Origin: a virus
IMG/VR virus record: IMGVR_UViG_3300027996_000207
Span: 1 to 21,043 of that record
Length of the DNA: 21,043 nucleotides
Direction: 5' to 3' (one strand)
Positions 4,372 to 19,553 of the stretch are shown here, piece by piece. Position 1 is the first letter of the stretch. The number at the start of each line of letters is the position of its first letter. The translations under genes and the position numbers were made by a program. The notes below the pieces were generated by a model. It did not search any database, was not told where the DNA came from, and worked only from the letters and a program-made list of their open reading frames with translations.

Positions 4372-4403
4372 GCCGCGTAGGTTGCCAGAATTGCCCGAAT
4401 CCG

Positions 4404-7253: not shown

Positions 7254-7869
7254 CTGAATAAGGGTATCCCGTCATTGCCTCAAGCTGAGATTCAAGTTCT
7301 ATAACACGCTTCCTGAGTCGCTTTATTTCATGTGAGTCAGTCGCTGGTTGGTGCGCAGCTTCTGGGATTCTGCCATCGCTTTGCCTGAATCTTTCTTCTA
7401 TCTGGTCACATGCCGACCAGCAGTCCGCCTGGCTTCCAACGAAAAGGATCACGAAGTCTGAATGTATTTTTTGTTGAAGTAGTTGGTTGTTTTTGATCAG
7501 CACCTTTTCAAGACCGTCAACACGAAACCACTTCTGATTACGGCTGTACTCGACGACGTGCAGGCTATTGCTTTGGTTTCTTAGCTTTGATGCCTTTTTC
7601 CTCCTGACGAAATCTTGGTACTCCGGGCGACCCATAAAAACAGACTCCACGATTTCCCGTCGCCTTTCGCGGTCGAGTAAATTAGATTCTTCATCTGCAT
7701 TTAACCATATAACACGAATGTGGAATTTTGACCCCAGATGACGTCGAGCGTCCGCCATGTTTGACGCCTCAAGTACCCCAAACTGGCTCGCGTCTGTTTT
7801 GCTGAAATACGCGAATCTTCTGAATAGCATATCCCCGTTAGTAATTTTGGTGTTGTCGTCTATTTTCAA
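7141..7869 (-). CDS. Hypothetical protein of lower GC content, overlapping the primase gene
   Basis: 242 residues from a TTG overlapping the helicase stop (TTGA). An ATG at 7830 is an alternative start. No family recognised. The N-terminal 130 residues are mixed alpha/beta (FHIRVIWLNADEE), a middle part holds SDFVILFVGSQADCW, and a coiled-coil segment lies near residues 182-197 (IKRLRKRVIELESQLEAM). The last ~40 residues overlap the primase start by 113 nt in another frame and look like incidental coding, as if an earlier stop was lost. The DNA is visibly more AT-rich than its neighbours, suggesting later acquisition. It sits between a helicase and a primase, but no replication role can be read from the sequence. 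Confidence 0.65.
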   Translation of the reverse strand: MKIDDNTKITNGDMLFRRFAYFSKTDASQFGVLEASNMADARRHLGSKFHIRVIWLNADEESNLLDRERRREIVESVFMGRPEYQDFVRRKKASKLRNQSNSLHVVEYSRNQKWFRVDGLEKVLIKNNQLLQQKIHSDFVILFVGSQADCWSACDQIEERFRQSDGRIPEAAHQPATDSHEIKRLRKRVIELESQLEAMTGYPYSDAPDTTGTEGIEPMALLEGRERKQDPDSGERQRSEIK

Positions 7870-9575
7870 AACGGTAAGTCATCCTCTCCGAACGCATCAA
7901 CTATCACTGCTTCCTGTGTGTATTCTTCCGGTTCCGGTCGCTCGCTGTCAAATTCGACGCCGCGAATCCGCTGATACCGACCTTCCTTCTGCGTCGTGAT
8001 TCGCGCAGGCATCCGGCACATGTGCCGGTCCAGCATCCAGATTGCGTCCAAAACAGAGGTTGGCATTGGCTCGTTGCTGTGAGCATCCCACCATGCCTTC
8101 GCTTTCGTTGCCGCGAAGCCCACATGTTCGATGCACACCCACTCTTGAATCCTTGTTTCTGTCAGGTTGCCCAGGTCTTCATCGGTTGGCTGGCAATAGT
8201 AATCGATCCGCAGCGTCGGCGGCGCGTCCGGTGCCCCTCGCTTCGTGTGACGTGCCCAACTCACGGACGTGACAACCCATGTCTCTGGCCCCGTGTTGCC
8301 CGTCAGCAATGAATCCTCGTCTGCCTGCGCGTCGTGCCGTGGCTTGTTCTCGCACGGGAACTTGAACTGACATTCCGGGCACGTCCGGTAATTGATCGCA
8401 ACCGAGTTGCCGCAGTTTGGGCAGTCCTTTTCCTCGCCTTCACCGCCGCCCTCACCCGTAGTGACTTCGTCGCGTCCGTATTCCGGATCGTCCAGTGATC
8501 CGTGCCGCTTGATGTTCTCGCCAAAGTCCAGAATCAGCGCGTCGGTTTTACCTTCACATGTCCGAAGACCACGCCCCACGATCTGAGCAAACAGCCCCGG
8601 CGACATGGTCGCACGAAGCACAGCGATAGCGTCGATGCACGGCGCGTCGAATCCTGTCGTCAGTACGTTACAGTTGACGAGCCATCTGAGTTTCCCTTCC
8701 CGGAAGTCGGCCAGATGCTTCTGACGAATCATAGGGAACGTATCGCCCACGATCAGCCCGACTTCCTCGCCTGTGAATTTCTGTAATGCGTCTGCGACAT
8801 GTTCGGCATGAGCCACGCCCGCAGTAAACACCAATATGCTTTTTCGGCCAGCGCACTTCAGGATTGTTTCACGACATGCTGCGACCACGTTTGCATCTGT
8901 GTCGAATGCCTTCTCCGCTTCGCCGGGCACAAACTCACCGCCCCGCACTTTTATTTGTGAAGTGTCAACCTCTTCATCCGCTCGCTTGTTTGTGATCGGG
9001 CAGAGAAAACCTTCTTCAATTAACCTGCCGGTCTGTGACTCGTAACAAATGTTCTGGAACAGCTTATCCGGCCCACAGACGACGCCCTCGCCTGTTCGGA
9101 ATGGTGTTGCCGTCAGCCCGACCAGCCGGGCTTTCTGATTAAGTTCCGTGATGCCGTGCAGGAACGAGCCGTACATCGAACTGTCGCTGTCGCCGACCAG
9201 ATGCACTTCGTCAATTATTATCAGTTCGCGCCTGCCGAATTTCGCCGCGTCCCGGTAGACGCTTTGAATCCCTGCGCAAATCACGTCGTGATCGTAGTTG
9301 CGAATCTTCAACCCGGCAGAGTTTATGCCGACAGGAATATCAGGCAGAATCGTCTGGATCTTCTCGGCGTTCTGTTCGATCAGTTCCTTGCGATGCTGCA
9401 GCACGATCACCCGTGCGTCGTACTTGCGAGCCTGCTCCACCATCATGGCAATGACAAGCGACTTGCCCGCGCCGGTCGGCAGGACGATCACTGGCGAGCC
9501 TTCGGAGTGTCGCAGGTGATTCCATGCCGCGTCGTGGGATTCCTGCTGATAATATCTCGCAACTAGCTTACTCAC
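7866..9575 (-). CDS. SF2 DEAD/DEAH-type helicase with C-terminal zinc ribbon
   Basis: 569 residues from a GTG directly after an in-frame TAA. Superfamily 2 motifs in order: Walker A LPTGAGKS (32-39), DEVH box (122-125), TATPFR (155-160), NCNVLTTGFDAP (about 301-312) and motif VI QIVGRGLR (331-338). After the helicase core a four-cysteine zinc ribbon (Cys385, 388, 399, 402) follows an acidic Gly-rich linker. A ~165-residue tail of unknown fold ends in DDLPF, which resembles the acidic tips that partner proteins use to bind SSB-type proteins. It is probably a RecQ/UvsW/RadD-like remodelling helicase for phage replication or recombination. An intrinsic terminator separates it from the upstream DUF669 gene. 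Confidence 0.9.
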   Translation of the reverse strand: MSKLVARYYQQESHDAAWNHLRHSEGSPVIVLPTGAGKSLVIAMMVEQARKYDARVIVLQHRKELIEQNAEKIQTILPDIPVGINSAGLKIRNYDHDVICAGIQSVYRDAAKFGRRELIIIDEVHLVGDSDSSMYGSFLHGITELNQKARLVGLTATPFRTGEGVVCGPDKLFQNICYESQTGRLIEEGFLCPITNKRADEEVDTSQIKVRGGEFVPGEAEKAFDTDANVVAACRETILKCAGRKSILVFTAGVAHAEHVADALQKFTGEEVGLIVGDTFPMIRQKHLADFREGKLRWLVNCNVLTTGFDAPCIDAIAVLRATMSPGLFAQIVGRGLRTCEGKTDALILDFGENIKRHGSLDDPEYGRDEVTTGEGGGEGEEKDCPNCGNSVAINYRTCPECQFKFPCENKPRHDAQADEDSLLTGNTGPETWVVTSVSWARHTKRGAPDAPPTLRIDYYCQPTDEDLGNLTETRIQEWVCIEHVGFAATKAKAWWDAHSNEPMPTSVLDAIWMLDRHMCRMPARITTQKEGRYQRIRGVEFDSERPEPEEYTQEAVIVDAFGEDDLPF

Positions 9576-9611
9576 TTAACATGCCCCCAAATTTTCTGAG
9601 TCTTGACCTCC

Positions 9612-9647
9612 AAAAAGAAAAGCCGCCTGACCTTCCAGCCAGGCGGC
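9612..9647 (-). terminator. Intrinsic terminator after the DUF669 gene
   Basis: On the minus strand GCCGCCTG pairs with CAGGCGGC (8 bp, 10-nt loop) and is followed by TTTTCTTTTT. It lies just past the DUF669 stop (9661) and before the helicase start (9575), so part of the transcript should end here. Confidence 0.85.
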
Positions 9648-9660
9648 AGAGTCCAACAGC

Positions 9661-10125
9661 CTAAAACGGTGACGCTTTTTCCGTCGCTGGCTTATCTTCG
9701 AAAGCCTGCTCGACCATGTTTCCCTGAGCGGCTCGCGGCTTGTAGCCCTTGACCTCGTTCTGGTTGTTGCCGTCTAAGTCCTTGCGGACTTTTACAACAG
9801 CCGTCAGCGGCTTCGTGTGCAACTCTGACGAGTCTTTCGGTTCAAGGACGCCGACAGCCCGGCAGATGCTGGACAGCGTGCCCTTCGCGATCTGCACGGC
9901 CACGTCCGACTGGTTCACCAGATTCAGCCGGTCGAACAATCGCCGGTTCTGATACGTGCCGCCGAGCACCTGTAACTGCAGTTCCAGATACTTACCTGCC
10001 CCGTTCTTCGTTTGCTTCATGTTGCTGCCCATGATGATGACGTCATATTCGCCAGCGGGCAGGGCAGAAAACGCTTCGTTTGGCTCAACGTCCGCAGCGT
10101 TGAAGCCTTCCAGATTACCACTCAT
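9661..10125 (-). CDS. DUF669-family protein, likely ssDNA-binding
   Basis: 154 residues from the ATG at 10125. This start is set by AGGAG with a 7-nt spacer; the frame is open further upstream without such a site. The N-terminus (MSGNLEGFNAADVEP) and the core (LPAGEYDVIIMGSNMKQTKNGAGKYLELQLQVLGG) match the DUF669 pattern: short beta strands of an OB-like fold with K.T.NG.G.YL. The end is disordered (FEDKPATEKASPF) with a final Phe, as in SSB-type tails. DUF669 proteins commonly sit beside Sak4/AAA_24 ATPases, as here, and are thought to act with them in single-strand handling or recombination. The ssDNA-binding role is taken from the family and context. Confidence 0.85.
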   Translation of the reverse strand: MSGNLEGFNAADVEPNEAFSALPAGEYDVIIMGSNMKQTKNGAGKYLELQLQVLGGTYQNRRLFDRLNLVNQSDVAVQIAKGTLSSICRAVGVLEPKDSSELHTKPLTAVVKVRKDLDGNNQNEVKGYKPRAAQGNMVEQAFEDKPATEKASPF

Positions 10126-10165
10126 TAAACTTCTCCTAAAGGAAACTAAAAACCCAAACTCACTA

Positions 10166-10933
10166 CTACTTTTTCTTCGATGATCCATCTACCACAACGC
10201 CGTCGATGTCACCAGTGAAATGTTCAGCGTACGCATCCCACGTAAACGGGATTTCCGGCGGAAGTGCCAGGCGGCACTTTGCCTGAACGGCGGCGGTCTC
10301 CTGCGTCCGCACGTATCGCTCACCGTCGCTCACTGCGACTGTTCGCTCTTTATTGAATCCTTTGTCCTCTTTCCGCGTGAAGACGCGGTAGGACGCAAAC
10401 AGAACTTCGTCGCACCACTCCTGCACGAGTGCCGACGCGAGCGGATGAAGTGCAGGCTGATAGCGGTCATAGGAGTCCTGTTCCGGAGACTCAAAACGCT
10501 TGATGTCAGCATGTGCCAACAGTATCACGCCGATACCACGTTCCGTCCGTAGCCAGTCCAGAGCAAACGTGACGCGGTCCCAGTACGATAGCGACTGTTT
10601 GTATCCGGCCCCGTAGCCGATGTCCGCTATTGACTTCTTTTGCGCCGCGTCGGCTACTGCTTTGTGGATCAGCTTCTCCAGCCAGTCTGCGGAATCAATC
10701 GCCACGTATTTGAAGCTATGCTTTTCTTCCGCCAGCCACCGCAGTGCGTCCATGATCTGGTCGAAGTCCTTGATTAGATCCGACCGGCTGCAGTCAATGT
10801 CGTTCAGCCCGTCCTCGACATTAAGGAACAGGCAGTCTGGAGCCTGCGCCGCCCATGTCGACTTCCCGACGCCATGCACGCCATACAGCATGACCCGCCT
10901 GGCGGCTTTTTTCTTACCCTTCGTGATCTTCAT
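10166..10933 (-). CDS. Sak4-like (AAA_24) P-loop ATPase, phage recombination
   Basis: 255 residues. Walker A is GVHGVGKST (18-26); Walker B is the hydrophobic strand KYVAIDSADW (Asp80). The RecA-like order with GVGKSTWAAQAP, FLNVEDG and GVILLAHADIKRF is characteristic of the AAA_24/Sak4 group of phage ATPases, which promote annealing or strand exchange with a single-strand DNA-binding partner. The next gene encodes such a partner (DUF669). The ATG has AAGG with a 6-nt spacer. The C-terminus is basic (SSKKK). Confidence 0.85.
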   Translation of the reverse strand: MKITKGKKKAARRVMLYGVHGVGKSTWAAQAPDCLFLNVEDGLNDIDCSRSDLIKDFDQIMDALRWLAEEKHSFKYVAIDSADWLEKLIHKAVADAAQKKSIADIGYGAGYKQSLSYWDRVTFALDWLRTERGIGVILLAHADIKRFESPEQDSYDRYQPALHPLASALVQEWCDEVLFASYRVFTRKEDKGFNKERTVAVSDGERYVRTQETAAVQAKCRLALPPEIPFTWDAYAEHFTGDIDGVVVDGSSKKK

Positions 10934-10963
10934 CTTCTGCCTTTCGTTAAACCTAAAACCTTC

Positions 10964-11224
10964 TCAACATTGCTCTCGTTGTGTTTCCCGCCGATGCCGT
11001 CGCTCGATCCCTGACGCTTTGTTTAGGCATGTCGTGCAGACCTCGATCCCGTCGACCGAGTCAGGGAATCCGACGACCTTATGCTTCGTCGGCTTGTGGA
11101 ATGTGTGCTTGTTGCACTGCGTCCTCATGCCGCTACTGTCCGGGATGTGCAGCCGCTGGTCCTTCGGTTCCGTCAGTTGATGGTTGCTCATTTCGTGATG
11201 TAGCCACGCTTTGTAGTAGTACAT
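10964..11224 (-). CDS. Small Cys/His-containing protein
   Basis: 86 residues from an ATG at 11224 with AAGGG and a 7-nt spacer. A second ATG at 11191 (MSNHQLTEPK) would give 75 residues but has no clear ribosome site. One cysteine in QCNKHTFHKPTKH and a later CTTC pair, with nearby histidines, could bind zinc. The tail is basic (RRHRRETQR). It overlaps the upstream gene's 3' end by 92 nt if the first ATG is used. No family recognised; a small nucleic-acid-binding protein is possible. Confidence 0.55.
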   Translation of the reverse strand: MYYYKAWLHHEMSNHQLTEPKDQRLHIPDSSGMRTQCNKHTFHKPTKHKVVGFPDSVDGIEVCTTCLNKASGIERRHRRETQREQC

Positions 11225-11483
11225 TCCAGATCCCTTTCAGTTCTTCCCGGACTGCCGGTCTTCGTTTCGCCGTCGCCAGCAGACAGCGAATCAGTTCCTC
11301 CGCTCGTGGTCGCTGCTCGATCTTCGCGAGCCAGTGCCGCTCGTAGTTGTACCACTCCCGCCGCGAATGATCCGGCGGGAACTCCCCCTGATGAATCGCG
11401 GGGATTTCACGTTCCCTGTCGATAATCGACAACGTGTATTCGTGGACGCCGATATTCGGCGGGCAGCGGCTTTGGTCAATCAT
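11133..11483 (-). CDS. Hypothetical protein in the early gene cluster
   Basis: 116 residues; the start overlaps the end of the preceding small gene. The N-terminal region reads NIGVHEYTLSIIDRERE. It is followed by a charged helical part (RREWYNYERHWLAKIEQRPRAEELI). The C-terminal ~30 residues are low-complexity (TDGTEGPAAAHPGQ) and overlap the next gene in another frame. No motif or family recognised. It lies between the GAGRP-motif protein and the recombination pair. Confidence 0.55.
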   Translation of the reverse strand: MIDQSRCPPNIGVHEYTLSIIDREREIPAIHQGEFPPDHSRREWYNYERHWLAKIEQRPRAEELIRCLLATAKRRPAVREELKGIWNVLLQSVATSRNEQPSTDGTEGPAAAHPGQ

Positions 11484-11673
11484 CGCTTTCCCATCGCTTA
11501 AAATCCGCAGTCCGCCGCACCACGTCCTCGACTAGATCAGCCTGGGTTTTCTCGTGCTGCTGAAGATATCGCCGCAGCGTGGGCGTGAGCCGCAGCCCGG
11601 TGTTGATTTTGCGTTCCCCGCGATCTGCGGGACGCCCTGCACCTTCGCGTTTGCCGCCGCGTTTTTTGGTCAT
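11476..11673 (-). CDS. Small basic protein with KREGAGRP motif, possible DNA-binder
   Basis: 65 residues. The N-terminus MTKKRGGKREGAGRPADRG carries the KREGAGRP signature found at the start of many small phage proteins, often followed by a ribbon-helix-helix-like domain. Here NTGLRLTPTLRRYLQQHEKTQADLVEDVVRR fits a beta strand followed by two helices. It is therefore a candidate small transcription regulator or DNA-packaging-type accessory. The ATG overlaps the methyltransferase stop (ATGA). The function is inferred from pattern only. Confidence 0.6.
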   Translation of the reverse strand: MTKKRGGKREGAGRPADRGERKINTGLRLTPTLRRYLQQHEKTQADLVEDVVRRTADFKRWESDD

Positions 11674-12659
11674 GCTGTTTCCTCGATTAGTTCCTCGTCT
11701 TCGATCTCGTCAAACAGTCCCGGTCCGTCATCCTCAATCTTCAGCGACGGAGTGTTCAAGTTTCGTTTGGCCTGCCGGTAGTACGATGGCTTCAGTTCTA
11801 TTCCGATGCCACGCCGATTCATTTGATTCGCCTGGAATACCTCAGACCCGACGCCCATGAACGGCGTCAATACTGTGTCGCCCTCGTTGCTGTAAAGCGT
11901 CAGCAGCCGTTCGATCACGTCCAACTGCAACGGGCAAACGTGCTTTTCTTCTTCGTTCTCTTTGCTTTCGACGTAGGGCATCAACCGCCCTGTGCGGATG
12001 TCCATCCAGACCGGCGAAGCGTAGTGCCGCCAGATCCAATGACTCAGACGATTGGTTTTCTGGTCACCCTTGAAGTTGCGATACTTCTTCACGAGGTCTT
12101 CAGGTATCGGCGTTTCCCCCGCGTACGTTTTCAGCCCTTCCAGGTGCTGTACGGGCTCTTTGTTCTCACCGCCCTTGATGAACACCATAATGTAATCCGC
12201 TGGCCCCGCCTGAACCTGTGCCGAGTCTTTACACAGATCCATATGACGCAAGGTCTTCATTCGGGTACGTCTCGCGATCAACCACGGGTCTTTCCATATC
12301 GTTATCATGCAATCGTAATCAAAACCAGCATTGATGTGAGCGCGGACGATGTCGCCAGGGAAGTGCCGCTTCGTCAGTTTGCTTTTCGGCAGGTCCATGC
12401 AGTGAACCGCTGAAAGCCTGCCCGGCTTTGTCGCTCGGTAGATTTCGTTGACGATGAACTGATACTGTTCCATCCCCTCTTCGTACGTCACGCAGTTGCT
12501 CATGTCACGCGGGTCGTTGGAATAAGCGTACATTTGCGGGAACGGCGGTGAGTAGACCGAGAATCCGACCGACTGATCAGGAATCTTCGGCAGCACCTCC
12601 ATCGTATCAGCGTTGTAAATCGCGTATTCGTCGGTCAGTTCTTCTTCAATTATAGCCAC
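11670..12659 (-). CDS. Beta-class DNA methyltransferase (N4-C or N6-A)
   Basis: 329 residues from a GTG with GGAGG and a 7-nt spacer. The catalytic motif IV SPPF (37-40) comes before the SAM-binding motif I TPFMGVGS (265-272). This is the beta-class order of the N6-adenine/N4-cytosine DNA methyltransferases. Supporting features are CPLQLDVIERLL before motif I and GIGIELKPSYYRQAKRNL after it. Length is normal. The C-terminus is acidic (DEIEDEELIEE). It probably methylates phage DNA, possibly against host restriction. No nuclease partner is adjacent. The gene overlaps the end of the SNF2-like helicase by 10 nt, so the two are co-translated. Confidence 0.85.
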   Translation of the reverse strand: MAIIEEELTDEYAIYNADTMEVLPKIPDQSVGFSVYSPPFPQMYAYSNDPRDMSNCVTYEEGMEQYQFIVNEIYRATKPGRLSAVHCMDLPKSKLTKRHFPGDIVRAHINAGFDYDCMITIWKDPWLIARRTRMKTLRHMDLCKDSAQVQAGPADYIMVFIKGGENKEPVQHLEGLKTYAGETPIPEDLVKKYRNFKGDQKTNRLSHWIWRHYASPVWMDIRTGRLMPYVESKENEEEKHVCPLQLDVIERLLTLYSNEGDTVLTPFMGVGSEVFQANQMNRRGIGIELKPSYYRQAKRNLNTPSLKIEDDGPGLFDEIEDEELIEETA

Positions 12660-14026
12660 GCGGGCACCTCCATTTCGTTGATGTGATTGTTGATAATTTC
12701 CACGCCTTCTGCGTTGTGCATCTCAGCCACCAACGCCGCGAACATACGGTCCGCCTTAACTTGCTTGCTTTGCAGGTTCGCAGTCACCCCTTCTTCTCCC
12801 TCTGTCGCGACGACATCCACCCGGACGGGACCAACCCGACCGAACCGCAGCGAACGTCTGACGCACTGGTAGTATTGCTCGAATGAATGCGAAGGGAAAA
12901 ACACTTGATGCCCGCAGTGTTGATAGTTCATCCCGAAGGCTCCGATTTTCGGCTTCGTGACGAGCACCCGGAACTCGTTATTCGCGAACCCTGCCAGCCG
13001 TTCTTCTTTTTCTTCGTCGGAGTTGCATCCCGCAACCTGCACGGCTCCCGGTATCAACCGCTCCAGCAGGTCGCCCTCTGGATTGTATTGACACCAGACA
13101 ATCACGGGTTCATCGTGCGACGTTGCCAGGTCGCACGCCATCTGACAACGCTCGGCCATCGTGCGCTTCCGCTCCTCCCGTTGCTCTGCCAGTGTTGCTG
13201 CGATCCGAACGAATAGTTCACCGTCGAACCTGAACGTAGTCGGTACAACATGCTGAGTGATAATCAATTCCGGCAGCGTGAATCTGTCGTCGTCGTATCC
13301 CATGTCACGCGGCGACCTGATGGCCCTTGCCCACGAGCACACCCAACGCCAGAACGGCTCCTCAGAATACGGACGGAAAAAGTATTTCGCACGGTTCCAG
13401 AAGTCGCCCTCCTTGAACAGTGAGTGCCGCTTTTTATCCGACGACAGGAAGAACGTCCCGATCATGTCCGACTGCGTTAGCTCGCCCAGCGCTTCGGATA
13501 TCGTACCGAGTTCGATGAAATCATTCGGGGCCGCTGTCGCAGTCGCTCCGAGCCTGTACTGCATTTTCGACATAAACCGCGTCACTTGTTTTCGTCGCTT
13601 ACCGTCGAACGCTTTCAGGCAACTGATCTCGTCACCGACAACGCCGGCAAAGTCTGACGGCTCAAACTTGTGCAGACTCTCGTAATTTGTCACGGTGATA
13701 TTTGGCATCACGGCCCCGTCTCGCGACACCTGTGCGTCAATGTCAAACTTCACCGCCTCCCGAACAGTCTGAGCAGCCACAGCCAGCGGCGTCAGCACCA
13801 GTACCGGACGGTTTGTGTGCCTCACGACATTCTCAGCCCACACCAACTGCTGAAGCGTCTTGCCGAGTCCGCAATCCTCAAACAGTCCGCACCGGCCCTT
13901 CTGCACCGCCCACGCGGTGAGATCCCGCTGGAAGTCGAACAGGCAGTCCGGGAGAAATGTCGGTTCAAAACCTCCCATAGTATTTGATTGAGTCTTCCCC
14001 TCGATGAACTCACGATAACCGCTCAC
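12650..14026 (-). CDS. SNF2-like SF2 helicase/ATPase
   Basis: 458 residues from a GTG at 14026, chosen because GGAGG lies 7 nt upstream and the GTG overlaps the previous stop (GTGA). Motifs: Walker A DCGLGKT (51-57), GDEIS box II (131-135), motif III GATATAAPNDF (160-170), a C-terminal RecA-like domain with VIVWCQYNPEGDLLERL, and motif VI QCVRRSLRFGR (about residues 391-401). Compact phage SNF2-type ATPases of this pattern are often encoded near replication genes and methyltransferases. A DNA-translocating role in replication, repair or recombination is likely; the substrate is unknown. Confidence 0.88.
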   Translation of the reverse strand: MSGYREFIEGKTQSNTMGGFEPTFLPDCLFDFQRDLTAWAVQKGRCGLFEDCGLGKTLQQLVWAENVVRHTNRPVLVLTPLAVAAQTVREAVKFDIDAQVSRDGAVMPNITVTNYESLHKFEPSDFAGVVGDEISCLKAFDGKRRKQVTRFMSKMQYRLGATATAAPNDFIELGTISEALGELTQSDMIGTFFLSSDKKRHSLFKEGDFWNRAKYFFRPYSEEPFWRWVCSWARAIRSPRDMGYDDDRFTLPELIITQHVVPTTFRFDGELFVRIAATLAEQREERKRTMAERCQMACDLATSHDEPVIVWCQYNPEGDLLERLIPGAVQVAGCNSDEEKEERLAGFANNEFRVLVTKPKIGAFGMNYQHCGHQVFFPSHSFEQYYQCVRRSLRFGRVGPVRVDVVATEGEEGVTANLQSKQVKADRMFAALVAEMHNAEGVEIINNHINEMEVPAWL

Positions 14027-14535
14027 GCTTCCACCTCCCATGATTCATAGTCAATCGGAATACCCAACGCCTGAGCCATTTGAATCTCAGCCGTCACACC
14101 TTCGCTCTCGTCCCACCCTGGCAACTGCAACACCATCAGCGACGTTGACCGCGTAATCATCGCGTGGTCGCACGTCTTCCAATAATCCCAGTCAGTCGGC
14201 AGACCAGACCGCATCGCAATCGGATGGCTGTGTGCAATCGGCGAATAGACGACGTGGCCGAGCTTCATTAAGTGCCCGGCGTATTCGCACACAGCGTCGA
14301 ATCGATCTCGCCGTACGTCCTCGTCAGCGTGGCTGTACGGGCTGGCGATGTAAATCAGTTCGCTCATTCGCTTCCGTTCTCGCTGCGCGGCGGCTTTCGC
14401 TGTCCGCCGTTTTCGTTGTTCGTTCAGATATGTTCGGCAGGTTCGGCACTGCTTGCCGTGGCCCGGCTCTGGCTCGCCAATGCCGCATCGAGGGCAGACG
14501 CCCGCTGATACTCGTGTCAGGTATTGTGTGGTCAT
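14023..14535 (-). CDS. Zinc-ribbon fused to a DUF1937 domain
   Basis: 170 residues; the ATG overlaps the previous stop. Residues 14-33 form a zinc ribbon with two CxxC pairs (Cys14/17 and Cys30/33). A basic linker follows (about 39-56, rich in Arg/Lys/Ala). From Met57 the sequence (MSELIYIASPYSH) is the usual start of DUF1937, a nucleoside 2-deoxyribosyltransferase-like fold, with YIASPYSH, GHVVYSPIAHSHPI and DYWKTCDHAMI as family hallmarks. DUF1937 proteins normally begin near that methionine, so the zinc ribbon is an added domain. An internal start at Met57 could also yield the short form. Its biochemical role in phages is not known to me. Confidence 0.8.
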   Translation of the reverse strand: MTTQYLTRVSAGVCPRCGIGEPEPGHGKQCRTCRTYLNEQRKRRTAKAAAQRERKRMSELIYIASPYSHADEDVRRDRFDAVCEYAGHLMKLGHVVYSPIAHSHPIAMRSGLPTDWDYWKTCDHAMITRSTSLMVLQLPGWDESEGVTAEIQMAQALGIPIDYESWEVEA

Positions 14536-14702
14536 GCCGACGCCTCCACTTTTCGCCGCAGTTCAATTCCGCCGACGGCCTCAAAGTCCGCCAGCGTCGC
14601 TTCGCCCGTTTCGATCATGCCTGCGAAACATCGGAGCGTGAAATCACTCATGGGGCCGGCTGGTTTCAGGTAGTCCGCGATCTTCTTTTGAATGTCGTTC
14701 AT
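14532..14702 (-). CDS. Small hypothetical protein (56 aa)
   Basis: Hand-translated: 56 residues beginning MNDIQKKIADYLKPAG and ending RRKVEASA. Both ends overlap neighbours by the ATGA pattern, which strongly suggests a real, coupled gene. It looks fully helical with one cysteine. The arrangement LADFEAVGGIELRRKVEA resembles a small helix-hairpin fold. No family recognised. Confidence 0.6.
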   Translation of the reverse strand: MNDIQKKIADYLKPAGPMSDFTLRCFAGMIETGEATLADFEAVGGIELRRKVEASA

Positions 14703-14857
14703 GCTGTATCTTTCGTTATTGCCACGACGATGAAATCTCCATCGGGGTAAATGTCGAGTAATTCATCCGCCGCTTCCTGAGCTTCACGGAACGTGTCGAA
14801 TACATTGTGCGATTCGTCCGTGTAGCAATCGTCGGCGTTTTTTATTTTCCACCTCAT
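14699..14857 (-). CDS. Small hypothetical protein (52 aa)
   Basis: Hand-translated: 52 residues beginning MRWKIKNADDCYTDESHNVF and ending VVAITKDTA. The pattern (short strand, acidic helix EAQEAADELLDIYP, then strand FIVVAI) is a compact alpha/beta fold seen in many tiny phage proteins of unknown role. The ATG has GGGAG 8 nt upstream in an 18-nt sequence identical to that of the gene at 14910-15077. The stop overlaps the next ATG. Confidence 0.6.
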   Translation of the reverse strand: MRWKIKNADDCYTDESHNVFDTFREAQEAADELLDIYPDGDFIVVAITKDTA

Positions 14858-14872
14858 CGTCTCTGCTCCCGT
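14855..14872 (-). repeat. Copy 1 of an 18-nt translation-initiation repeat
   Basis: Minus-strand ACGGGAGCAGAGACGATG, identical to 15075-15092. Each copy contains a ribosome site (GGGAG) and the start ATG of a different small gene. Confidence 0.8.
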
Positions 14873-14884
14873 TGAAAGTTGAAA

Positions 14885-14900
14885 GCCCGCCGAGGCGGGC
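14885..14900 (-). terminator. GC-rich hairpin between small genes, weak terminator candidate
   Basis: GCCCGC pairs with GCGGGC around a 4-nt loop just after the TAA of the 55-residue gene. On the minus strand only a short TTTC follows, so termination would be partial. It may instead stabilise or separate mRNA segments. Confidence 0.45.
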
Positions 14901-14909
14901 GTGTGGTGT

Positions 14910-15077
14910 TTACAGTCCGGCCAGTTTGATCGCTCGGCGAATCGCCGCGACTCGAAGCGGCAACGCCCAGATGTCCCTGACGATCTGTTTCCGACCGACG
15001 CTGTCGCCAGCGGCGTCGCGTGATTGTGCCTGTTCGATCATGCTGGCAAGTGTTCGTTTTGCGTTTTCGTTGTTCAT
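14910..15077 (-). CDS. Small hypothetical basic protein (55 aa)
   Basis: Hand-translated: 55 residues beginning MNNENAKRTLASMIEQAQSR and ending RRAIKLAGL. It is helical and basic, and the C-terminal half (PLRVAAIRRAIKLAGL) could be an amphipathic helix. It is the first gene after a 115-nt non-coding gap and has GGGAG 8 nt upstream. A hairpin follows its stop. No family recognised. A longer frame across this region (14854-15150) is less likely because it has no ribosome site and a shadow-like composition. Confidence 0.6.
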   Translation of the reverse strand: MNNENAKRTLASMIEQAQSRDAAGDSVGRKQIVRDIWALPLRVAAIRRAIKLAGL

Positions 15078-15092
15078 CGTCTCTGCTCCCGT
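15075..15092 (-). repeat. Copy 2 of an 18-nt translation-initiation repeat
   Basis: Identical to 14855-14872. It carries the ribosome site and ATG of the 55-residue gene. Confidence 0.8.
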
Positions 15093-15192
15093 GTGTGTTG
15101 ATTGTGTCTGACAGGTGAACTATATCAACCATCGTCTGATTGTGTATCACTAATCCAGAACAATCTGACGGATTCGGGAAAGTATTACAGAA
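15093..15192. promoter_or_regulatory. Intergenic region with repeated GATTGT motifs
   Basis: About 100 bp of AT-richer DNA between the resolvase gene and the 55-residue gene. GATTGTGT occurs twice on the plus strand (15100-15107 and 15138-15145), and ACAATC occurs inverted (15160-15165). Such spaced short repeats suggest operator sites. The minus strand has TTGATA with a weak -10 (CACAAT) at 16-bp spacing, so a promoter for the small-gene group is possible but not convincing. Confidence 0.35.
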
Positions 15193-15627
15193 TCAATGTT
15201 TTTCCTCGTCAGTTATCGATATTTCCGTGCGTGGCAACGCCCCGTCACGGACGATCCATTTCGACAGCCGCAACTCGCACACCCGCGAGTCGTCACCGAA
15301 TGCGTGATTCTGCAGGCTATCCAGCACGCCTTTCGCCAGGTTGTCCAAATCAGGCTTCGTCGTCTTCACTTCCGCCAGCATCGGCTTCGTCTTCCACACT
15401 TTATTCAGCGGTCGGGGGAACCAGAACGTGATGCCAACCGACACCGCACCGGGCATCGGTGCCCCGTAGACTTTGCCCAGCGATTGCCAGACGAGCAGCA
15501 CTGCCCGCTTGTAATTGTGTATCGGATGATCCTTCGGGATGTACGCACCGCGCGGTCCTACGCGGTGGCGTGGTTGTGCGACGGGAACGCCGGGGACCGT
15601 GAAATGTACGCGGCGGGATGTTGTCAC
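15193..15627 (-). CDS. rusA: RusA-family Holliday junction resolvase
   Basis: 144 residues from a GTG at 15627, chosen because GGAGG lies 6 nt upstream and the codon overlaps the previous stop (GTGA). An upstream GTG at 15651 would add eight residues without such a site. RusA hallmarks are present: an N-terminal VPGVPVAQPRHR basic segment, KPDLDNLAKGVLDSL with the catalytic acidic pair (Asp93, Asp95), GDDSRVCEL (Asp112/113), and a conserved Lys in LSKW (123). RusA enzymes cut four-way DNA junctions as dimers. In phages they process recombination or replication intermediates before packaging. Length matches the family (about 120-150). Confidence 0.88.
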   Translation of the reverse strand: MTTSRRVHFTVPGVPVAQPRHRVGPRGAYIPKDHPIHNYKRAVLLVWQSLGKVYGAPMPGAVSVGITFWFPRPLNKVWKTKPMLAEVKTTKPDLDNLAKGVLDSLQNHAFGDDSRVCELRLSKWIVRDGALPRTEISITDEEKH

Positions 15628-15836
15628 GGTTTGCCTCCCCACTCTTGCCACTCCAGTATCTCGCGGCGATGTTCGCGGATTTTGCTGAGTGCCATCGCCA
15701 GATGTAACGCCGTTGATTGGTGCGAGTCGCTGACGTGGATCCGCTCGCCGTGCTGGTCACGGACGTGGCAGCAACCGCCATCAAGTATTTCTACCGACCA
15801 CGTGCCGCCGTCAAGTTCAATGTCTTCCTTCGTCAT
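15624..15836 (-). CDS. Small hypothetical protein (70 aa)
   Basis: 70 residues beginning MTKEDIELDGGTWSVEILDG. The first half looks like beta strands (TWSVEILDGGCCHVRDQHGERIHV), the second a helix (STALHLAMALSKIREHRREILEW). It has a Cys-Cys pair and several histidines. Start and stop both overlap neighbouring genes. No family recognised. Confidence 0.6.
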   Translation of the reverse strand: MTKEDIELDGGTWSVEILDGGCCHVRDQHGERIHVSDSHQSTALHLAMALSKIREHRREILEWQEWGGKP

Positions 15837-15997
15837 TTCAACTGCTCCAGAGAATCGACAGACTCCCCTTTTGTTTGCTTGTCTCGGTATTCGTTTTTGA
15901 AACGCTCCAGTGCCATGTCTTTGTCACTGGCAAATAGAATGATGTGCCGCCCCGTATTCGTCGTGATCTTGAATCGCTCTGTATCTGCCGTCAGCAT
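15833..15997 (-). CDS. Small hypothetical protein (54 aa)
   Basis: Hand-translated: 54 residues beginning MLTADTERFKITTNTGRHII and ending VDSLEQLK. The ATG has AGGA with a 6-nt spacer and the TGA overlaps the next ATG. A beta-strand start is followed by a charged helix (DKDMALERFKNEYRDKQ). It is the first gene after the structured element downstream of csrA. No family recognised. Confidence 0.6.
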   Translation of the reverse strand: MLTADTERFKITTNTGRHIILFASDKDMALERFKNEYRDKQTKGESVDSLEQLK

Positions 15998-16026
15998 CTC
16001 AGTTCCTTTTCGTTGTTAAAAATGAA

Positions 16027-16103
16027 ATACAGGGGAACCCTTAGCCCACGCCAGTCAGTGCCTCACGGGTCCAGGCCACAGACTGGCCGCCGACTCCCTG
16101 TAT
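16027..16103 (-). ncRNA. Candidate structured RNA element downstream of csrA
   Basis: In the minus-strand transcript ATACAGGG pairs with CCCTGTAT (8 bp) and encloses a second perfect stem, GCCAGTC with GACTGGC (7 bp). This is topped by a 6-bp stem with one bulge and a 9-nt loop beginning GGA (GGACCCGTG). A T-rich stretch follows the outer stem. The element fills the csrA to 54-residue-gene gap. It could be a 3' UTR structure, a complex terminator or a CsrA-binding RNA (GGA in a hairpin loop is the preferred Csr site). It is not a tRNA, and I match it to no known ribozyme. Confidence 0.45.
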
Positions 16104-16112
16104 CCCAAATTG

Positions 16113-16328
16113 TCAGACCCGAGCCGTCACTCGTTGACGTTCCTGCGGCTCGCTATCGCTCTCAGCAGTAGCCCGACTCTCCTCACGCAGAATCTGAATA
16201 TCCGCGTCTGCCTCGATCCGTATTCGCGTGGACGATCTGCCGCACTGGTGGACGATCAGCTTTGCGATCTGCCGACCGTCGCGGTACAGATACACGCCCT
16301 CGTCGATTTTTCTTGAAAGCACTAGCAC
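16113..16328 (-). CDS. csrA: CsrA/RsmA-family RNA-binding regulator
   Basis: 71 residues from a GTG with AAGGA 8-9 nt upstream. The start MLVLSRKIDEGVYL is the CsrA signature. The middle strands (IAKLIVHQ, STRIRIEAD) and ILREE (46-50) align with the second RNA-contact segment (HREE in the E. coli protein). Residues matching the known contacts are kept: Leu4, Arg6 and Arg48-Glu49. It is slightly longer than usual between strands 1 and 2, and has a ~20-residue hydrophilic tail. CsrA dimers bind GGA motifs (ANGGA), usually near ribosome sites, and repress or stabilise mRNAs. The phage copy may reprogramme host or phage translation. Its own leader holds 23 ACGGA motifs, so strong autoregulation or self-titration is likely. 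Confidence 0.85.
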   Translation of the reverse strand: MLVLSRKIDEGVYLYRDGRQIAKLIVHQCGRSSTRIRIEADADIQILREESRATAESDSEPQERQRVTARV

Positions 16329-16540
16329 GTTGCGTTTCCTTTCGTTCCGTCTCCGTATCCGTATCCGTATCCGTTTCCGTTTCCGTTTCCGTTTCCGTAT
16401 CCGTTTCCGTATCCGTCTCCGTCTCCGTATCCGTATCCGTCTCCGTATCCGTCTCCGTCTCCGTGTCCGTATCCGTATCCGTCTCCGGTCGCCAGAACTC
16501 CGCCTCCGGTCGCCAGAACTCCGTCGTCATGAAGTTGCAC
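16322..16540 (-). CDS. Possible Gly-(Tyr/Asp/Asn) repeat peptide leading into csrA
   Basis: A 72-residue frame from a GTG at 16540, which lies at ideal spacing (6 nt after GGAGG) from an excellent ribosome site, AAGGAGGTGAT. After VLATGGGVLATGDG it becomes a Gly-X dipeptide repeat (X = Tyr, Asp, Asn or His). It stops at a TAG that overlaps the csrA start region, so reading it would couple ribosomes into csrA. The repeat is the coding readout of the ACGGAN array. Every Gly is GGA and every X codon ends in C, so synonymous sites are frozen while X varies. That argues that the nucleotide motif, not this peptide, is under selection. A rival ATG frame at 16530 is discussed in the findings. The product may be only a leader peptide. 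Confidence 0.35.
   Translation of the reverse strand: MQLHDDGVLATGGGVLATGDGYGYGHGDGDGYGDGYGYGDGDGYGNGYGNGNGNGNGYGYGYGDGTKGNATC
16346..16488 (-). repeat. Tandem ACGGAN hexamer array upstream of csrA (23 copies)
   Basis: On the minus strand ACGGA occurs 23 times in exact 6-nt register from 16482 down to 16346; one further degenerate unit (CCGGA) lies at 16484-16488. The five-base core never changes. The sixth base is T (10), G (7), A (5) or C (1). ACGGA fits the ANGGA core bound by CsrA, and the array lies in the sense strand of the csrA mRNA leader. Candidate roles are a CsrA sponge or autoregulatory leader. Confidence 0.9.
16483..16523 (-). repeat. Two copies of a 20-nt direct repeat next to the hexamer array
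   Basis: The plus-strand unit CTCCGGTCGCCAGAACTCCG occurs at 16483-16502 and 16504-16523 (period 21). On the minus strand each copy contains two more GGAG words, extending the GGA-rich leader beyond the 23 hexamers towards the upstream ribosome site. Confidence 0.85.
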
Positions 16541-16868
16541 GAATCACCTCCTTGCAATCGATCATGGACACCACAGCCAACTCATGTACCCGCACCGTTC
16601 CGCAGTCGTCCGCTTTCGTTTCAGGCGTTGCGCCGTTCAGCGCAAGTTCTCCGAGTCCTTTGGTGGTGCCCCAGACCCGCAGATTCACCGCGTCCTGTAT
16701 GACGAGGTATTGCCCGTAAAACGAAACGTCGCCGGCGTAGACGAATCCACGTTGACATACGACGATCTTGAAACCGCCGGGTGCTGCCTCACGCGTTTCT
16801 GTCGGTGGCATTCGATCTTCCGCCGGTTCTGACAGCAACTCACGCAAATCGCTCATGCTCAATTCCAT
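16527..16868 (-). CDS. Phage protein of unknown function (DUF6948-like pattern)
   Basis: 113 residues from the ATG at 16868, with AAGG 9 nt upstream; a TTG further upstream is less likely. After a short helical start and a Pro/Glu/Thr linker comes a beta-rich core: KIVVCQRGFVYAGDV, YLVIQDAVNLRVWGTTKGLGELALNG, then TVRVHELAVVSMIDC. I recall this RVWGTTKGLGELALNGP pattern from small phage proteins, perhaps DUF6948, but cannot confirm it. It follows the 26-residue membrane peptide by one base. The last codons contain the strong ribosome site for the frame that leads into csrA. Confidence 0.65.
   Translation of the reverse strand: MELSMSDLRELLSEPAEDRMPPTETREAAPGGFKIVVCQRGFVYAGDVSFYGQYLVIQDAVNLRVWGTTKGLGELALNGATPETKADDCGTVRVHELAVVSMIDCKEVIRATS
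16543..16553 (-). promoter_or_regulatory. Near-perfect Shine-Dalgarno sequence AAGGAGGTGAT
   Basis: This matches almost the full complement of the 16S rRNA 3' end, the strongest such site seen in the window. It lies inside the last codons of the upstream gene and points to the GTG at 16540 rather than the ATG at 16530. It also contains a GGA, so bound CsrA could cover it. Confidence 0.7.
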
Positions 16869-16950: not shown

Positions 16951-17459
16951 CAAAACCCCTCCGGCAGCATGCAAGGATACCCTGTTGACCGCCGACAATC
17001 GACACCGTCAATCTTCGTCAGCTCCAGCGGCTGCGGCAGGTCGTACCGCATTTGATACTGACGGTCAGCCAGCACCTGCCAGACAAATCCGCACTGCCGC
17101 AGAAAACAAAGCACGTCGTCCTGGTCGTCAGGACACGTCACCGTGATCAGGTCGCGGCGATAACCCGTTTCCGCTCCCAGTTTGTTCAGAAGCCGCTGCA
17201 TGAGTTCGTAAGCGGCCCCGAAATCCCAGTCACCATCACAGGCCACGTTGGCGATATGTATCGATGACGGATGCAGCGTATACGCCATCCACCCGACGAT
17301 TTCCGTTTCGTCCTGCTCGCACACCATCGCGATTCCGTTGCGCAGTTTGCAATGTTCCAGCAGGTCGGCTTGATCCCACGCGTGCATGGCACCGAGTTCC
17401 AGTGCCTCCGTTATATCGCGGCGGATCAGCCAGCGGACGGTTAGTGGTTCACTGTCCAT
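16950..17459 (-). CDS. RimI-like GNAT acetyltransferase with degenerate acetyl-CoA loop
   Basis: 169 residues. The sequence VRWLIRRDITEALEL at the start, IVGWMAYTLHPSSIHIANVACDG and CFLRQCGFVWQVLADRQYQMRY follow the pattern of RimI-type N-acetyltransferases, especially those I recall from planctomycetes. The region that should hold the acetyl-CoA pyrophosphate loop (R/Q-x-x-G-x-G/A) reads DWDFGAAYELMQRL, so the usual Arg/Gln and first Gly are absent. It may use a divergent loop or be inactive. Likely targets, if active, are protein N-termini or side chains. The last residues overlap the start of the membrane microprotein gene. Confidence 0.65.
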   Translation of the reverse strand: MDSEPLTVRWLIRRDITEALELGAMHAWDQADLLEHCKLRNGIAMVCEQDETEIVGWMAYTLHPSSIHIANVACDGDWDFGAAYELMQRLLNKLGAETGYRRDLITVTCPDDQDDVLCFLRQCGFVWQVLADRQYQMRYDLPQPLELTKIDGVDCRRSTGYPCMLPEGF

Positions 17460-17637
17460 TTCTCAACCTCACATATTCCGGGTGATCCTTGTCATAGTCC
17501 CGCATTAACCGGCTGATCGCCTGTTCTCGATTCCGTTCGCTCACGTATCGCGTCGTTTTCATGACTGCCGCAAAGTAGCCGCGAGCGTGGTTGATAATTC
17601 GTTGCGTTTTGATTGTCTCTGCGAGGTCGTCGGTCAT
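17449..17637 (-). CDS. Small basic helical protein (62 aa)
   Basis: 62 residues beginning MTDDLAETIKTQRIINHARG. It is strongly helical and basic, with ERNREQAISRLMRDYDKDHPEYVRLRNG towards the end. The start overlaps the preceding stop (ATGA) and the end overlaps the next gene. No family recognised; nucleic-acid binding is possible from its charge. Confidence 0.6.
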   Translation of the reverse strand: MTDDLAETIKTQRIINHARGYFAAVMKTTRYVSERNREQAISRLMRDYDKDHPEYVRLRNGQ

Positions 17638-17990
17638 TTTTGTTCGTCCTTGAGTTTGTACGCGGTCACCGTCTTGCCAGACACCCGGCAGGTCTTAACA
17701 CCATCGGCAATGATGCGGCCACGCTTGAGTAATCCTGTATACCGTTTCCGATATGATTCGGTTTCGGTGTGCTTGCCGTCGCCTTCCAGGCAATTGAACA
17801 GCCGAGCGGCATCATCTGCCGCTTCGCGTGCTGTCTTCGGCCAGCGCCTGAACGCGGAAAGTAAACGGGATTCCAGCTTGCCGAGCTTGGGCAACATCTC
17901 ATCCGCTGCCGCGTGCGACGTGTCCGGGTCGGAGTGGCGTGCGATCTTTGGATCACGCTCGTCGTCGAATAGCGTTTGCTGGTGTGTCAT
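17634..17990 (-). CDS. Winged-helix-like phage protein, probable regulator
   Basis: 118 residues. The N-terminal RHSDPDTSHAAADEM is a motif I recognise from many small phage proteins. It is followed by a winged-helix-like pattern: LESRLLSAFRRWPKTAREAADDAARL, SYRKRYTGLLKRGRIIADGVKTCRVSGKTVTAYKL, with the last part as the wing. It is the first gene after the promoter and attenuator-like leader at 17991-18125, a common place for a regulator. Binding site and target are unknown. It starts four genes upstream of the microprotein/csrA cluster. Confidence 0.65.
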   Translation of the reverse strand: MTHQQTLFDDERDPKIARHSDPDTSHAAADEMLPKLGKLESRLLSAFRRWPKTAREAADDAARLFNCLEGDGKHTETESYRKRYTGLLKRGRIIADGVKTCRVSGKTVTAYKLKDEQK

Positions 17991-18004
17991 GTTTCACCCG
18001 GCAC

Positions 18005-18033
18005 AAAAAAACCTCCACGTCTGCCGGTGGAAG
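18005..18033 (-). terminator. Intrinsic terminator inside the early-operon leader
   Basis: On the minus strand CTTCCAC (18033-18027) pairs with GTGGAGG (18018-18012) with one G-U pair and an 8-nt loop, followed by seven Ts. It lies between the promoter (18125-18096) and the first gene (17990). It would stop both read-through from the nuclease gene and new transcripts, unless the competing hairpin pairing forms. Confidence 0.75.
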
Positions 18034-18070
18034 CGGCGAACGGGAGGAACCGAAGTTTTTAAGTTTTCTG

Positions 18071-18089
18071 CGTCGCCTTCCACGCGACG
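18071..18089 (-). promoter_or_regulatory. 5' leader hairpin whose loop complements the terminator arm
   Basis: CGTCGC pairs with GCGACG (6 bp) around the 7-nt loop GTGGAAG. The loop is a perfect complement of CTTCCAC, the 5' arm of the downstream terminator, so pairing the two would block the terminator. The hairpin begins about where transcription from the promoter should start. The loop also carries a GGA, the core of CsrA sites. Confidence 0.55.
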
Positions 18090-18095
18090 GGGGAC

Positions 18096-18125
18096 ACCAT
18101 AACCAAAACAGAATCTGTATGTCAA
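18096..18125 (-). promoter_or_regulatory. Strong sigma70-type promoter for the early operon
   Basis: A perfect -35 TTGACA (18125-18120), an 18-bp spacer and TATGGT (18101-18096) as -10; shifting by one gives TTATGG at 17 bp. It lies just after the nuclease stop codon and points to the winged-helix gene and the csrA-containing operon. Confidence 0.7.
18108..18118. promoter_or_regulatory. Operator-like palindrome ACAGAATCTGT in the promoter spacer
   Basis: A perfect 5-bp inverted repeat with one central base, exactly between the -35 and -10 boxes. A repressor bound here would block the promoter. It is short, so chance is possible. Confidence 0.4.
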
Positions 18126-18131
18126 CCCCAC

Positions 18132-18461
18132 TCAATAACTTTGATATTTGGCGTGTTGATTCGCGACCAGCGCGTCTGACAGGTTGCCACCGTCCGGCAG
18201 CAAAACCTCAGCTATGTATCTGCCGTACTTGCCCTGAGAATCCTTGAACGTCTCAACCGTCACGTCCTTGCCCAAAATCTGCGACCGCAGCCAGTCGCGT
18301 GCAAGTAATCCCGCCGGTCGTTCGGTGCCGCGAACCTCCCAGGCATTGATTCTGGCGAGCCGCAGACGCTCGACCCTGAACGTGTGAAATCCAAGATCGA
18401 CCCTGACTGTGATCGTGTCGCCGTCATAGACTTTTTGAACGAACGCGGAGTATTCGTACAT
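18132..18461 (-). CDS. Staphylococcal-nuclease-fold (SNase-like) nuclease
   Basis: 109 residues. SNase landmarks: VYDGDT (11-16, calcium-binding Asp15), RLRLARINAWEVRG (32-45) with candidate Arg34 and Glu42, and GKYGRYIAEV with Arg81. These match Asp21, Arg35, Glu43 and Arg87 of staphylococcal nuclease. The position of the metal ligand Asp40 is Asn39 here, a change seen in many phage and bacterial relatives (INAPE pattern). It has no signal peptide, so it probably acts inside the cell, for example degrading host DNA or RNA. It follows the small membrane proteins by one base. The early promoter begins just after its stop codon. Confidence 0.85.
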   Translation of the reverse strand: MYEYSAFVQKVYDGDTITVRVDLGFHTFRVERLRLARINAWEVRGTERPAGLLARDWLRSQILGKDVTVETFKDSQGKYGRYIAEVLLPDGGNLSDALVANQHAKYQSY

Positions 18462-18462
18462 G

Positions 18463-18666
18463 TCACTGCCCCGCCAGTAGTTTTTTCAGTTCGCCGATGT
18501 CCTCGCGAAGCTGCTCAAATTGTGACCGCTGCCGTTCCTCGACGACTGCGATCCGCTGGCCGTTGGCGACGACCTCGCCACTGATCCATCCGCAAAACGA
18601 GAACGCGACAGCCCCGAGGATGATCCACCCGGCCCATTTGATTTTCTGCATGTCGGCGTTGCTCAT
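18463..18666 (-). CDS. Small membrane protein with coiled-coil tail
   Basis: 67 residues: one N-terminal transmembrane segment (about 12-34, AGWIILGAVAFSFCGWISGEV) followed by a charged helix with coiled-coil character (VVEERQRSQFEQLREDIGELKKLL). This architecture resembles spanin-like or XhlA-type lysis accessory proteins, although XhlA has the reverse order. It overlaps the 66-residue membrane protein (ATGA). Together they form a likely lysis cassette. No endolysin is in the window to confirm this. Confidence 0.6.
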   Translation of the reverse strand: MSNADMQKIKWAGWIILGAVAFSFCGWISGEVVANGQRIAVVEERQRSQFEQLREDIGELKKLLAGQ

Positions 18667-18863
18667 TTCGGCTTCCCTGCTCGCGTGACGAACTGCCGCA
18701 CGGCTTCACTGGCTGCCACTGCCGTGATGATTGCCCCGAGTGCTTTGAGTTCTGTTTCGTCGAAGGTAGACGAAAACAGAAACAGCGAACCGAGTGCGGC
18801 CAGAAGGTACGTCGCGTGCATGGCCCATCGCCAGAACGGCGAAGCGGAATCTTTGATGTTCAT
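18663..18863 (-). CDS. Small membrane protein, holin-like
   Basis: 66 residues. One clear transmembrane segment (about 13-31, WAMHATYLLAALGSLFLF) and a second weaker hydrophobic helix (about 42-52, LGAIITAVAAS). The ends are charged, with a basic C-terminus (RAGKPK). Size and topology fit a class II-type holin. GGGAG lies 6 nt upstream of the ATG. The next gene, also a small membrane protein, overlaps the stop. No family match is claimed. Confidence 0.6.
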   Translation of the reverse strand: MNIKDSASPFWRWAMHATYLLAALGSLFLFSSTFDETELKALGAIITAVAASEAVRQFVTRAGKPK

Positions 18864-18929
18864 TCTGATCTCCCTTCGGCAGCGTCTTCCGCCACTGCCC
18901 GGTAACCGGAGGCCGTAACTATGGTTTCG

Positions 18930-19553
18930 TCAGTTTTGTATCTGGTCCGTGTCGGGAACGTACACACCCGCCGTATAGGACATGCTCCCAGCAGCGGTGG
19001 CATTATCGACGACGATTAGGAGCACGTCACCGCTTCCCGATCTTTGCTGGTATACGTCAAGGTCGGCGGGAATGCCTGCCTGAAATACCAGGTCCGCGTA
19101 ATCGTTGACAGTGGATGCTTCCACCAGCAGGTGAGTATGGACTGCCCGCCCGACTTCGCCCATCACATAGACTCCCGCACCTTTCGGAATGACCGCTGAG
19201 ATATTGTTATTGAACGTGACAGTATTGCCCGTGATCGATGCAACGTCGTTCGCTTCGATGCCTGCGTCGGTCATGTAACAGATCCAATCGTTCGCATCGA
19301 TTGTTTCCTGAGCACCTGCCGGCGTGACGTGCGGTGACGTGTCATCTAGTTTTAGTGTGGTCTGCCCGCTGGCAGCCTCGGCAGCCGCTAGCGTCGTGCC
19401 GATTGTCTTCATGAGGTAGATGTTGTGTGCAGTGGTGGAACATTTATAACGCATGTGCGTAAGTCGCGGGATGTGCCCCGCCAGTGGTGGAAACGCCTCC
19501 GTCACTTCTGCCCCGATTGACTGCGTCTGATATCCGGTCTGAAAAACTGGCAT
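18930..19553 (-). CDS. Likely virion structural protein, family not recognised
   Basis: 207 residues with AGGAGG 8 nt before the ATG, a strong site suggesting high expression. The sequence is rich in Thr, Ala, Val and Gly with predicted beta strands (NTVTFNNNISAVIPKGAGVYVMGEVGRAV; DVLLIVVDNATAAGSMSYTAGVYV). There is no signal peptide or membrane segment. The composition and the neighbouring decoration-like gene suggest a capsid- or tail-associated protein. A 66-nt gap without recognisable signals follows. Confidence 0.6.
   Translation of the reverse strand: MPVFQTGYQTQSIGAEVTEAFPPLAGHIPRLTHMRYKCSTTAHNIYLMKTIGTTLAAAEAASGQTTLKLDDTSPHVTPAGAQETIDANDWICYMTDAGIEANDVASITGNTVTFNNNISAVIPKGAGVYVMGEVGRAVHTHLLVEASTVNDYADLVFQAGIPADLDVYQQRSGSGDVLLIVVDNATAAGSMSYTAGVYVPDTDQIQN

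Follow-up and report, generated by a model that had tools for sequence, protein, structure and literature searches.

In a 21,043-nucleotide stretch of viral DNA (hereafter, the window; the whole of the sequence analysed), we identified a leader RNA whose 5′ hairpin and terminator hairpin carry fully complementary loops. The sequence comparisons below suggest that this RNA probably gates read-through into an early (replication) operon through a kissing-loop interaction. The leader is encoded on the minus strand throughout. It is bounded by a gene for a staphylococcal-nuclease-like endonuclease (18132-18461, minus strand), the last gene ahead of it, and by a gene for a 118-amino-acid protein.

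The leader is preceded by a sigma-70-type promoter (18096-18125, minus strand; 10/12) in which TTGACA (18125-18120) and TATGGT (18101-18096) are separated by an 18-nt spacer; the perfect -35 box proposed in the first-pass annotation is thus present. A consensus scan of positions 17000-19000 returned this sense promoter as the only promoter-like match. Transcription is predicted to start near 18089, at the base of a 5′ hairpin, HP1 (CGTCGC-GTGGAAG-GCGACG, 18071-18089, from the fold), and the loop GTGGAAG (18083-18077) is indeed located at the position that annotation gave for its hairpin, the expected start site. HP1 and the terminator are separated by a linker that is rich in A and includes a small middle hairpin. 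This middle hairpin (AAC-UUCG-GUU, 18048-18057, read from the sequence) lies directly 5′ of the terminator and is outside the minimum-free-energy fold in the window. The predicted terminator hairpin, CCTCCCGTTCGCCG-CTTCCAC-CGGCAGACGTGGAGG (18012-18047), is followed by a tract of seven U (18005-18011), and an RNA starting at HP1 is predicted to reach this intrinsic-type terminator after about 80 nt. Within it, CTTCCAC (18033-18027) is the candidate partner of the HP1 loop: a 7/7 complement 43 nt downstream, as first proposed. Inspection by eye revealed no short open reading frame with a plausible ribosome site, and none that was conserved, and we therefore rejected a leader peptide.

The geometry of this pairing differs from the one originally suggested, in which CTTCCAC formed the 5′ arm of the terminator and its pairing with the HP1 loop turned the operon on. 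The most stable predicted fold of the window (-19.7 kcal/mol) caps the terminator hairpin with CTTCCAC as its apical loop; forcing this segment to pair as an arm with GTGGAGG gave -11.9 kcal/mol, 7.8 worse. The complementary segment likewise lies in an apical loop, on stems of 14-16 bp, in three of four relatives, the fourth being identical to the window. Because the partner folds as an apical loop, pairing in the window would be loop-loop ('kissing') and could coexist with the terminator stem, so that neither has to displace the other. An on-switch by loop-arm pairing therefore ceases to be the default interpretation. What survives of the attenuator-like leader first described is a conditional-looking terminator before an early operon and the pairing of a 5′ loop with that terminator; the loop-arm geometry does not. 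The energies given here are from ViennaRNA, in which kissing loops cannot be scored. As the overall fold stability of the window leader is unremarkable (z -0.65), the case rests on the complementarity and its conservation. The 7-mer match alone would mean little, because CTTCCAC is present six times in the whole window.

The terminator stands at the entrance to a long run of replication genes. The first gene past it encodes the 118-amino-acid protein (17634-17990, minus strand; phrog_1123, function unknown), with its ATG 14 nt after the U-tract. Further replication and early genes follow on the minus strand (5109-16328), encoding CsrA-like, RusA-like resolvase, SNF2-type helicase, DNA methyltransferase, Sak4-like, SSB, helicase and primase proteins. 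In a related contig of 40.8 kb (L004), genes for terminase, portal, head protease and major head proteins lie upstream of the leader on the same strand, and RecT and a helicase are encoded downstream. Together, the genes around these two leaders place the element at the boundary between late structural and early replication genes. In every member of the leader family, the start codon lies 13-17 nt past the U-tract, which leaves no room for a promoter; transcripts of the first early gene must therefore read through the terminator, whether they begin at this promoter or farther upstream. The leader thus combines several parts of an attenuator: a promoter, a leader, a GC-rich hairpin with a U-tract, and a gene start without room for another promoter. 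Two further genes in the window are unusual in composition. An open reading frame at 16183-16557 (minus strand) encodes a long Thr-Asp/Thr-Glu repeat (TDTDTETETD...) from an imperfect 6-base DNA repeat and overlaps the start of the CsrA-like gene. A 410-amino-acid protein (3175-4407, minus strand) appears as an unusual fusion, with a weak N-terminal match to a thioredoxin domain, a weak match to a protease family further on and a Gly-Pro-rich, collagen-like stretch.

To assess the conservation of the leader, we used the 118-amino-acid protein as a query, which yielded three related contigs (L002, L003 and L004), and then searched relatives of the SNF2-type helicase by script for two hairpins with perfectly complementary loops, the second being a terminator hairpin followed by a T-run. 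Across 3.1 million strand-bases, the script returned, apart from family members, only one chance-looking match (L052) and the leaders of L141 and L153, which were new. Five distinct leader records resulted (the window, L003, L004, L141 and L153); the leader of L002 is identical to that of the window and is counted with it. All have a common layout: TTGACA is followed by a 5′ hairpin where transcription should begin, then by a small middle hairpin, by a terminator whose loop spans 6-8 nt and by a start codon. TTGACA is kept in the four leaders other than the window, and in all five the -10 box lies 6-7 nt upstream of HP1, so that the RNA is expected to begin with HP1. Weak -10 boxes are found in the window, L003 and L141. 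L003 and L004 have an HP1 of GTTGC-GAGCAG-GCRAC and a 14-bp terminator stem whose apical loop, CTGCTC, pairs with GAGCAG at every position. L141 and L153 have TTGACA upstream of an HP1 of GTCGA-GTGCAACA-TCGAC and a 7/7 loop pair, GTGCAAC/GTTGCAC, in which 6 nt of GTTGCAC are unpaired in the predicted terminator loop; their flank, TTTTTTCATGGAGTAA, resembles that of L003 and L004. Counterparts of the middle hairpin are folded in L003, L004 and L141/L153, and the sequences suggest that a third hairpin just before the terminator seems general in the family. It is larger in L141 (about 187-203) and L153 (about 877-893), where it reads CAGGG-GAGA-CCCTG.

The family appears small, as most SNF2-helicase relatives with long flanks (for example, L139, L146, L147 and L150) have no such leader. 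The element was also absent from SNF2-helicase relatives in bacterial genomes (L294-L339), from Synechococcus phage S-H1 and from Rhodobacteraceae phage LS06-2018-MD05. L340 was rejected as a member: it has the 3′ flank pattern in common, and its terminator is unrelated. A search with the 118-amino-acid protein of 294 genomes from the phylum of L310 (a Planctomycetota MAG) gave one marginal match. As a control, we used a loose DNA pattern; among the matches listed, no unrelated one joined a full loop match with a T-run.

The complementarity of the two loops is kept throughout the family, with compensatory changes, which answers the question of its conservation in related phages. The three loop pairs (GTGGAAG/CTTCCAC, GAGCAG/CTGCTC and GTGCAAC/GTTGCAC) are all fully complementary over 6-7 bp, so that each presents perfectly complementary apical loops on two stable hairpins. 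Between the window and L141, loop positions 4 and 7 differ by exchanges of G-C and C-G in which both sides changed; the window and L003 are separated by one paired deletion and no fewer than two double changes. The stem of HP1 also varies in a compensatory manner (C-G, U-A, U-G; C-G, A-U), as do the terminator stems. These counts come from a hand alignment by structural element, as MAFFT misaligns the L141 group. Own loop pairs were predicted at -8.0 to -10.2 kcal/mol and cross-lineage pairs at +0.1 to -3.4 kcal/mol. With one pair shared by L003 and L004 and another by L141 and L153, there are three distinct pairs in total (n = 3). The loops of all lineages are alike (G-N-G-...-A), suggesting that the three pairs are probably homologous to one another; because they look related, the independent evidence is a handful of compensatory events and not 19 base pairs.

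The simplest alternative is coincidence, in which an ordinary late-operon terminator happens to be preceded by a chance promoter and an accidental 7-mer match. The position of the terminator at the late/early boundary and the six copies of CTTCCAC in the window speak for such a reading. We therefore compared the family with a null set of 464 terminator-like hairpins from 3.2 Mb of unrelated loci, each paired with hairpins 20-75 nt upstream. None of the 540 unrelated hairpin pairs had six or more complementary loop bases, and 3 of 540 had five, whereas all three distinct loop states of the leader family have at least six. Together with the double changes, this comparison makes coincidence very improbable.

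Conservation of the loop sequence itself bears on another idea, that CsrA encoded in the same operon binds the GGA in the HP1 loop and closes a feedback loop. CsrA-like genes are found in the early operons of the window (16113-16328, minus strand; PF02599 match) and L004 (5660-5869), and their products are 48% identical to each other. However, the GGA occurs only in the window-type loop (also in L002), and the loops of L003, L004, L141 and L153 lack it. We therefore rejected a CsrA-regulated leader, as a conserved loop GGA is missing even though L004 also has a CsrA-like gene.

We propose that the loop of HP1 very probably pairs with the terminator's apical loop in a kissing complex. By hand estimate, the linker of 26-36 nt could span HP1, the kiss and the terminator stem stacked end to end in one RNA. 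Most likely, the kiss would catch the loop of the terminator on its exit from the polymerase and help the terminator to close; the product would be compact, an RNA of about 85-95 nt with a hairpin at each end. Read-through would then result from whatever occupies or opens HP1, or from linear pairing between HP1 and the 5′ arm of the terminator, which may form in the nascent RNAs of the window, L003 and L004. As to the direction of control, our guess from this model leans towards a kiss that promotes termination: it is favoured as a termination aid over antitermination because it is compatible with a closed terminator whose loop points away from the polymerase.

A classical attenuator would reverse this logic, with the HP1 loop and 3′ arm pairing linearly with the 5′ arm and loop of the terminator to form an antiterminator that would exclude the terminator and switch the operon on. 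Nascent RNA without the terminator 3′ arm is predicted to fold in this manner in the window, L003 and L004 (-16.1, -12.4 and -16.3, respectively). However, the linear fold is not predicted for L141, in which HP1 stays closed, and so linear antiterminator pairing does not appear to be the common denominator of the family. The full terminator is also more stable than the alternative, and Watson-Crick complementarity stops at the loop edges: outward extension is absent in the window and L141 and amounts to at most one G-U in L003 and L004. We regard such an attenuator as improbable as the main mechanism, although in our model the same 6-7 bp could serve two states, the kiss and the linear pairing.

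The history of the leader differs from that of its neighbours. The flanking genes of the window and L003 are 96% and 90% identical in nucleotide sequence, compared with 64% for the leader and 53% for the terminator hairpin. Between L003 and L004, flanking genes are 82% and 71% identical and the leader 91.5%. Thus, the flanking genes join the window with L003, apart from L004 (81% and 68%), whereas the leader joins L003 with L004, apart from the window. Because the two groupings disagree, we conclude that the leader is swapped as a cassette, both loops together, between closely related phages. Positions 1-350 of L002 are a natural recombinant, with an L003-type end of the nuclease gene joined to a window-type leader and the switch near 90-115; the rest of L002 differs again, its SNF2 helicase being 55% identical to that of the window.

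Such exchange would also suit an RNA that acts in trans. A terminated RNA of about 90 nt, if it accumulated, could kiss nascent leaders of the same type and enforce termination, serving as copy-number feedback or as superinfection immunity in the style of the P4 CI RNA, and its specificity would be set by the loop pair. The loop pairs are orthogonal between lineages, the disagreement of leader and flanks and the L002 junction are as expected from exchange of a specificity cassette, and hairpins at both RNA ends are found in stable small RNAs. However, both partners are present on each RNA, where intramolecular pairing should outpace intermolecular pairing, and neutral segments also undergo cassette exchange. 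We consider trans self-recognition unlikely, albeit the strongest of the alternatives. In its fullest form, a self-recognising RNA with a swappable loop-loop code would shut the replication operon of same-code phages only, providing immunity or copy control without protein; judged from the sequences, this is a shade less likely again. The preferred reading remains a kiss within one leader RNA.

Several known systems share parts of this arrangement. The early replication operon of satellite phage P4 is controlled by premature termination in an untranslated leader, involving leader-encoded RNA complementarity (PMC4825925). P4 immunity (CI RNA, seqA/seqC) and the leader described here have in common an early replication operon, a terminator in the leader and RNA complementarity. 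In P4, however, the targets of a processed RNA are separate sites that flank it on both sides, whereas here the apical loops of the 5′ hairpin and the terminator are involved; complementarity was found only between these two loops, and not to separate sites in the style of seqA/seqC. With this other layout, the leader falls outside the P4 system. Attenuators of the pT181 type also place an intrinsic leader terminator under the control of loop-loop contact (PMC4878617). That contact resembles the one proposed here, but in pT181 the RNA that contacts the 5′ hairpin is an antisense RNA from the opposite strand, and the terminator arm is sequestered by an antiterminator. In the leader described here, the loop of its own terminator would be the partner of the 5′ hairpin. 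No antisense promoter was found over the leader in a consensus scan of 17000-19000, which a weak one could escape, and on this basis we do not assign the leader to the pT181 type.

Fully complementary loops are also a feature of ColE1, whose RNAI and RNAII loops are 7 nt. The sequence of these loops sets specificity (PMC9458437). By contrast with the single transcript described here, in which only the loops match, RNAI and RNAII are sense and antisense RNAs that are complementary over their full length and act on primer formation. In riboswitches, intramolecular loop-loop pairing in a leader is represented by the L2-L3 contact of the purine riboswitch. The guanidine-II riboswitch provides another case (PMC7357161). 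Riboswitches differ from the present leaders in having a conserved ligand-binding core, whereas here the second loop is that of the terminator and the loop sequences change while remaining matched.

The prohead RNA (pRNA) of phage phi29 is likewise short and has two hairpin loops that are complementary to each other (PMC7357161). It raises a structural role in which leader RNAs kiss head to tail between molecules to form a multimer and the adjacent operon plays no part. A phage RNA needs no more than two hairpins with matching loops to build such a ring or chain (phi29 pRNA, PMC7357161). However, the phi29 kiss is a 4-bp intermolecular one in an RNA of other architecture with a packaging role, and the leaders have neither the three-way junction nor the end-helix domain of pRNA. 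Their second hairpin is a terminator sited 13-17 nt before a gene, ahead of an operon. Rfam scans of three leaders gave no family at the gathering threshold, pRNA included; weaker matches to NsiR1, gntR-DTE and others fell below the gathering score, look like chance and were rejected. A structural RNA is thus very unlikely, about on a par with coincidence.

By analogy with these systems, the proposed leader is like RNA-controlled attenuation with a kissing-loop recognition step. To our knowledge, no described leader has a 5′ hairpin that kisses the terminator's own apical loop, and a full-text search of mainly open-access literature returned none. Attenuators and kissing loops, taken separately, are familiar elements. 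If the proposed mechanism is correct, these phages would possess a very compact, protein-free switch of about 85-95 nt whose specificity is easily re-coded, and a part of the terminator that is generally regarded as inert, its loop, would prove able to act in regulation.
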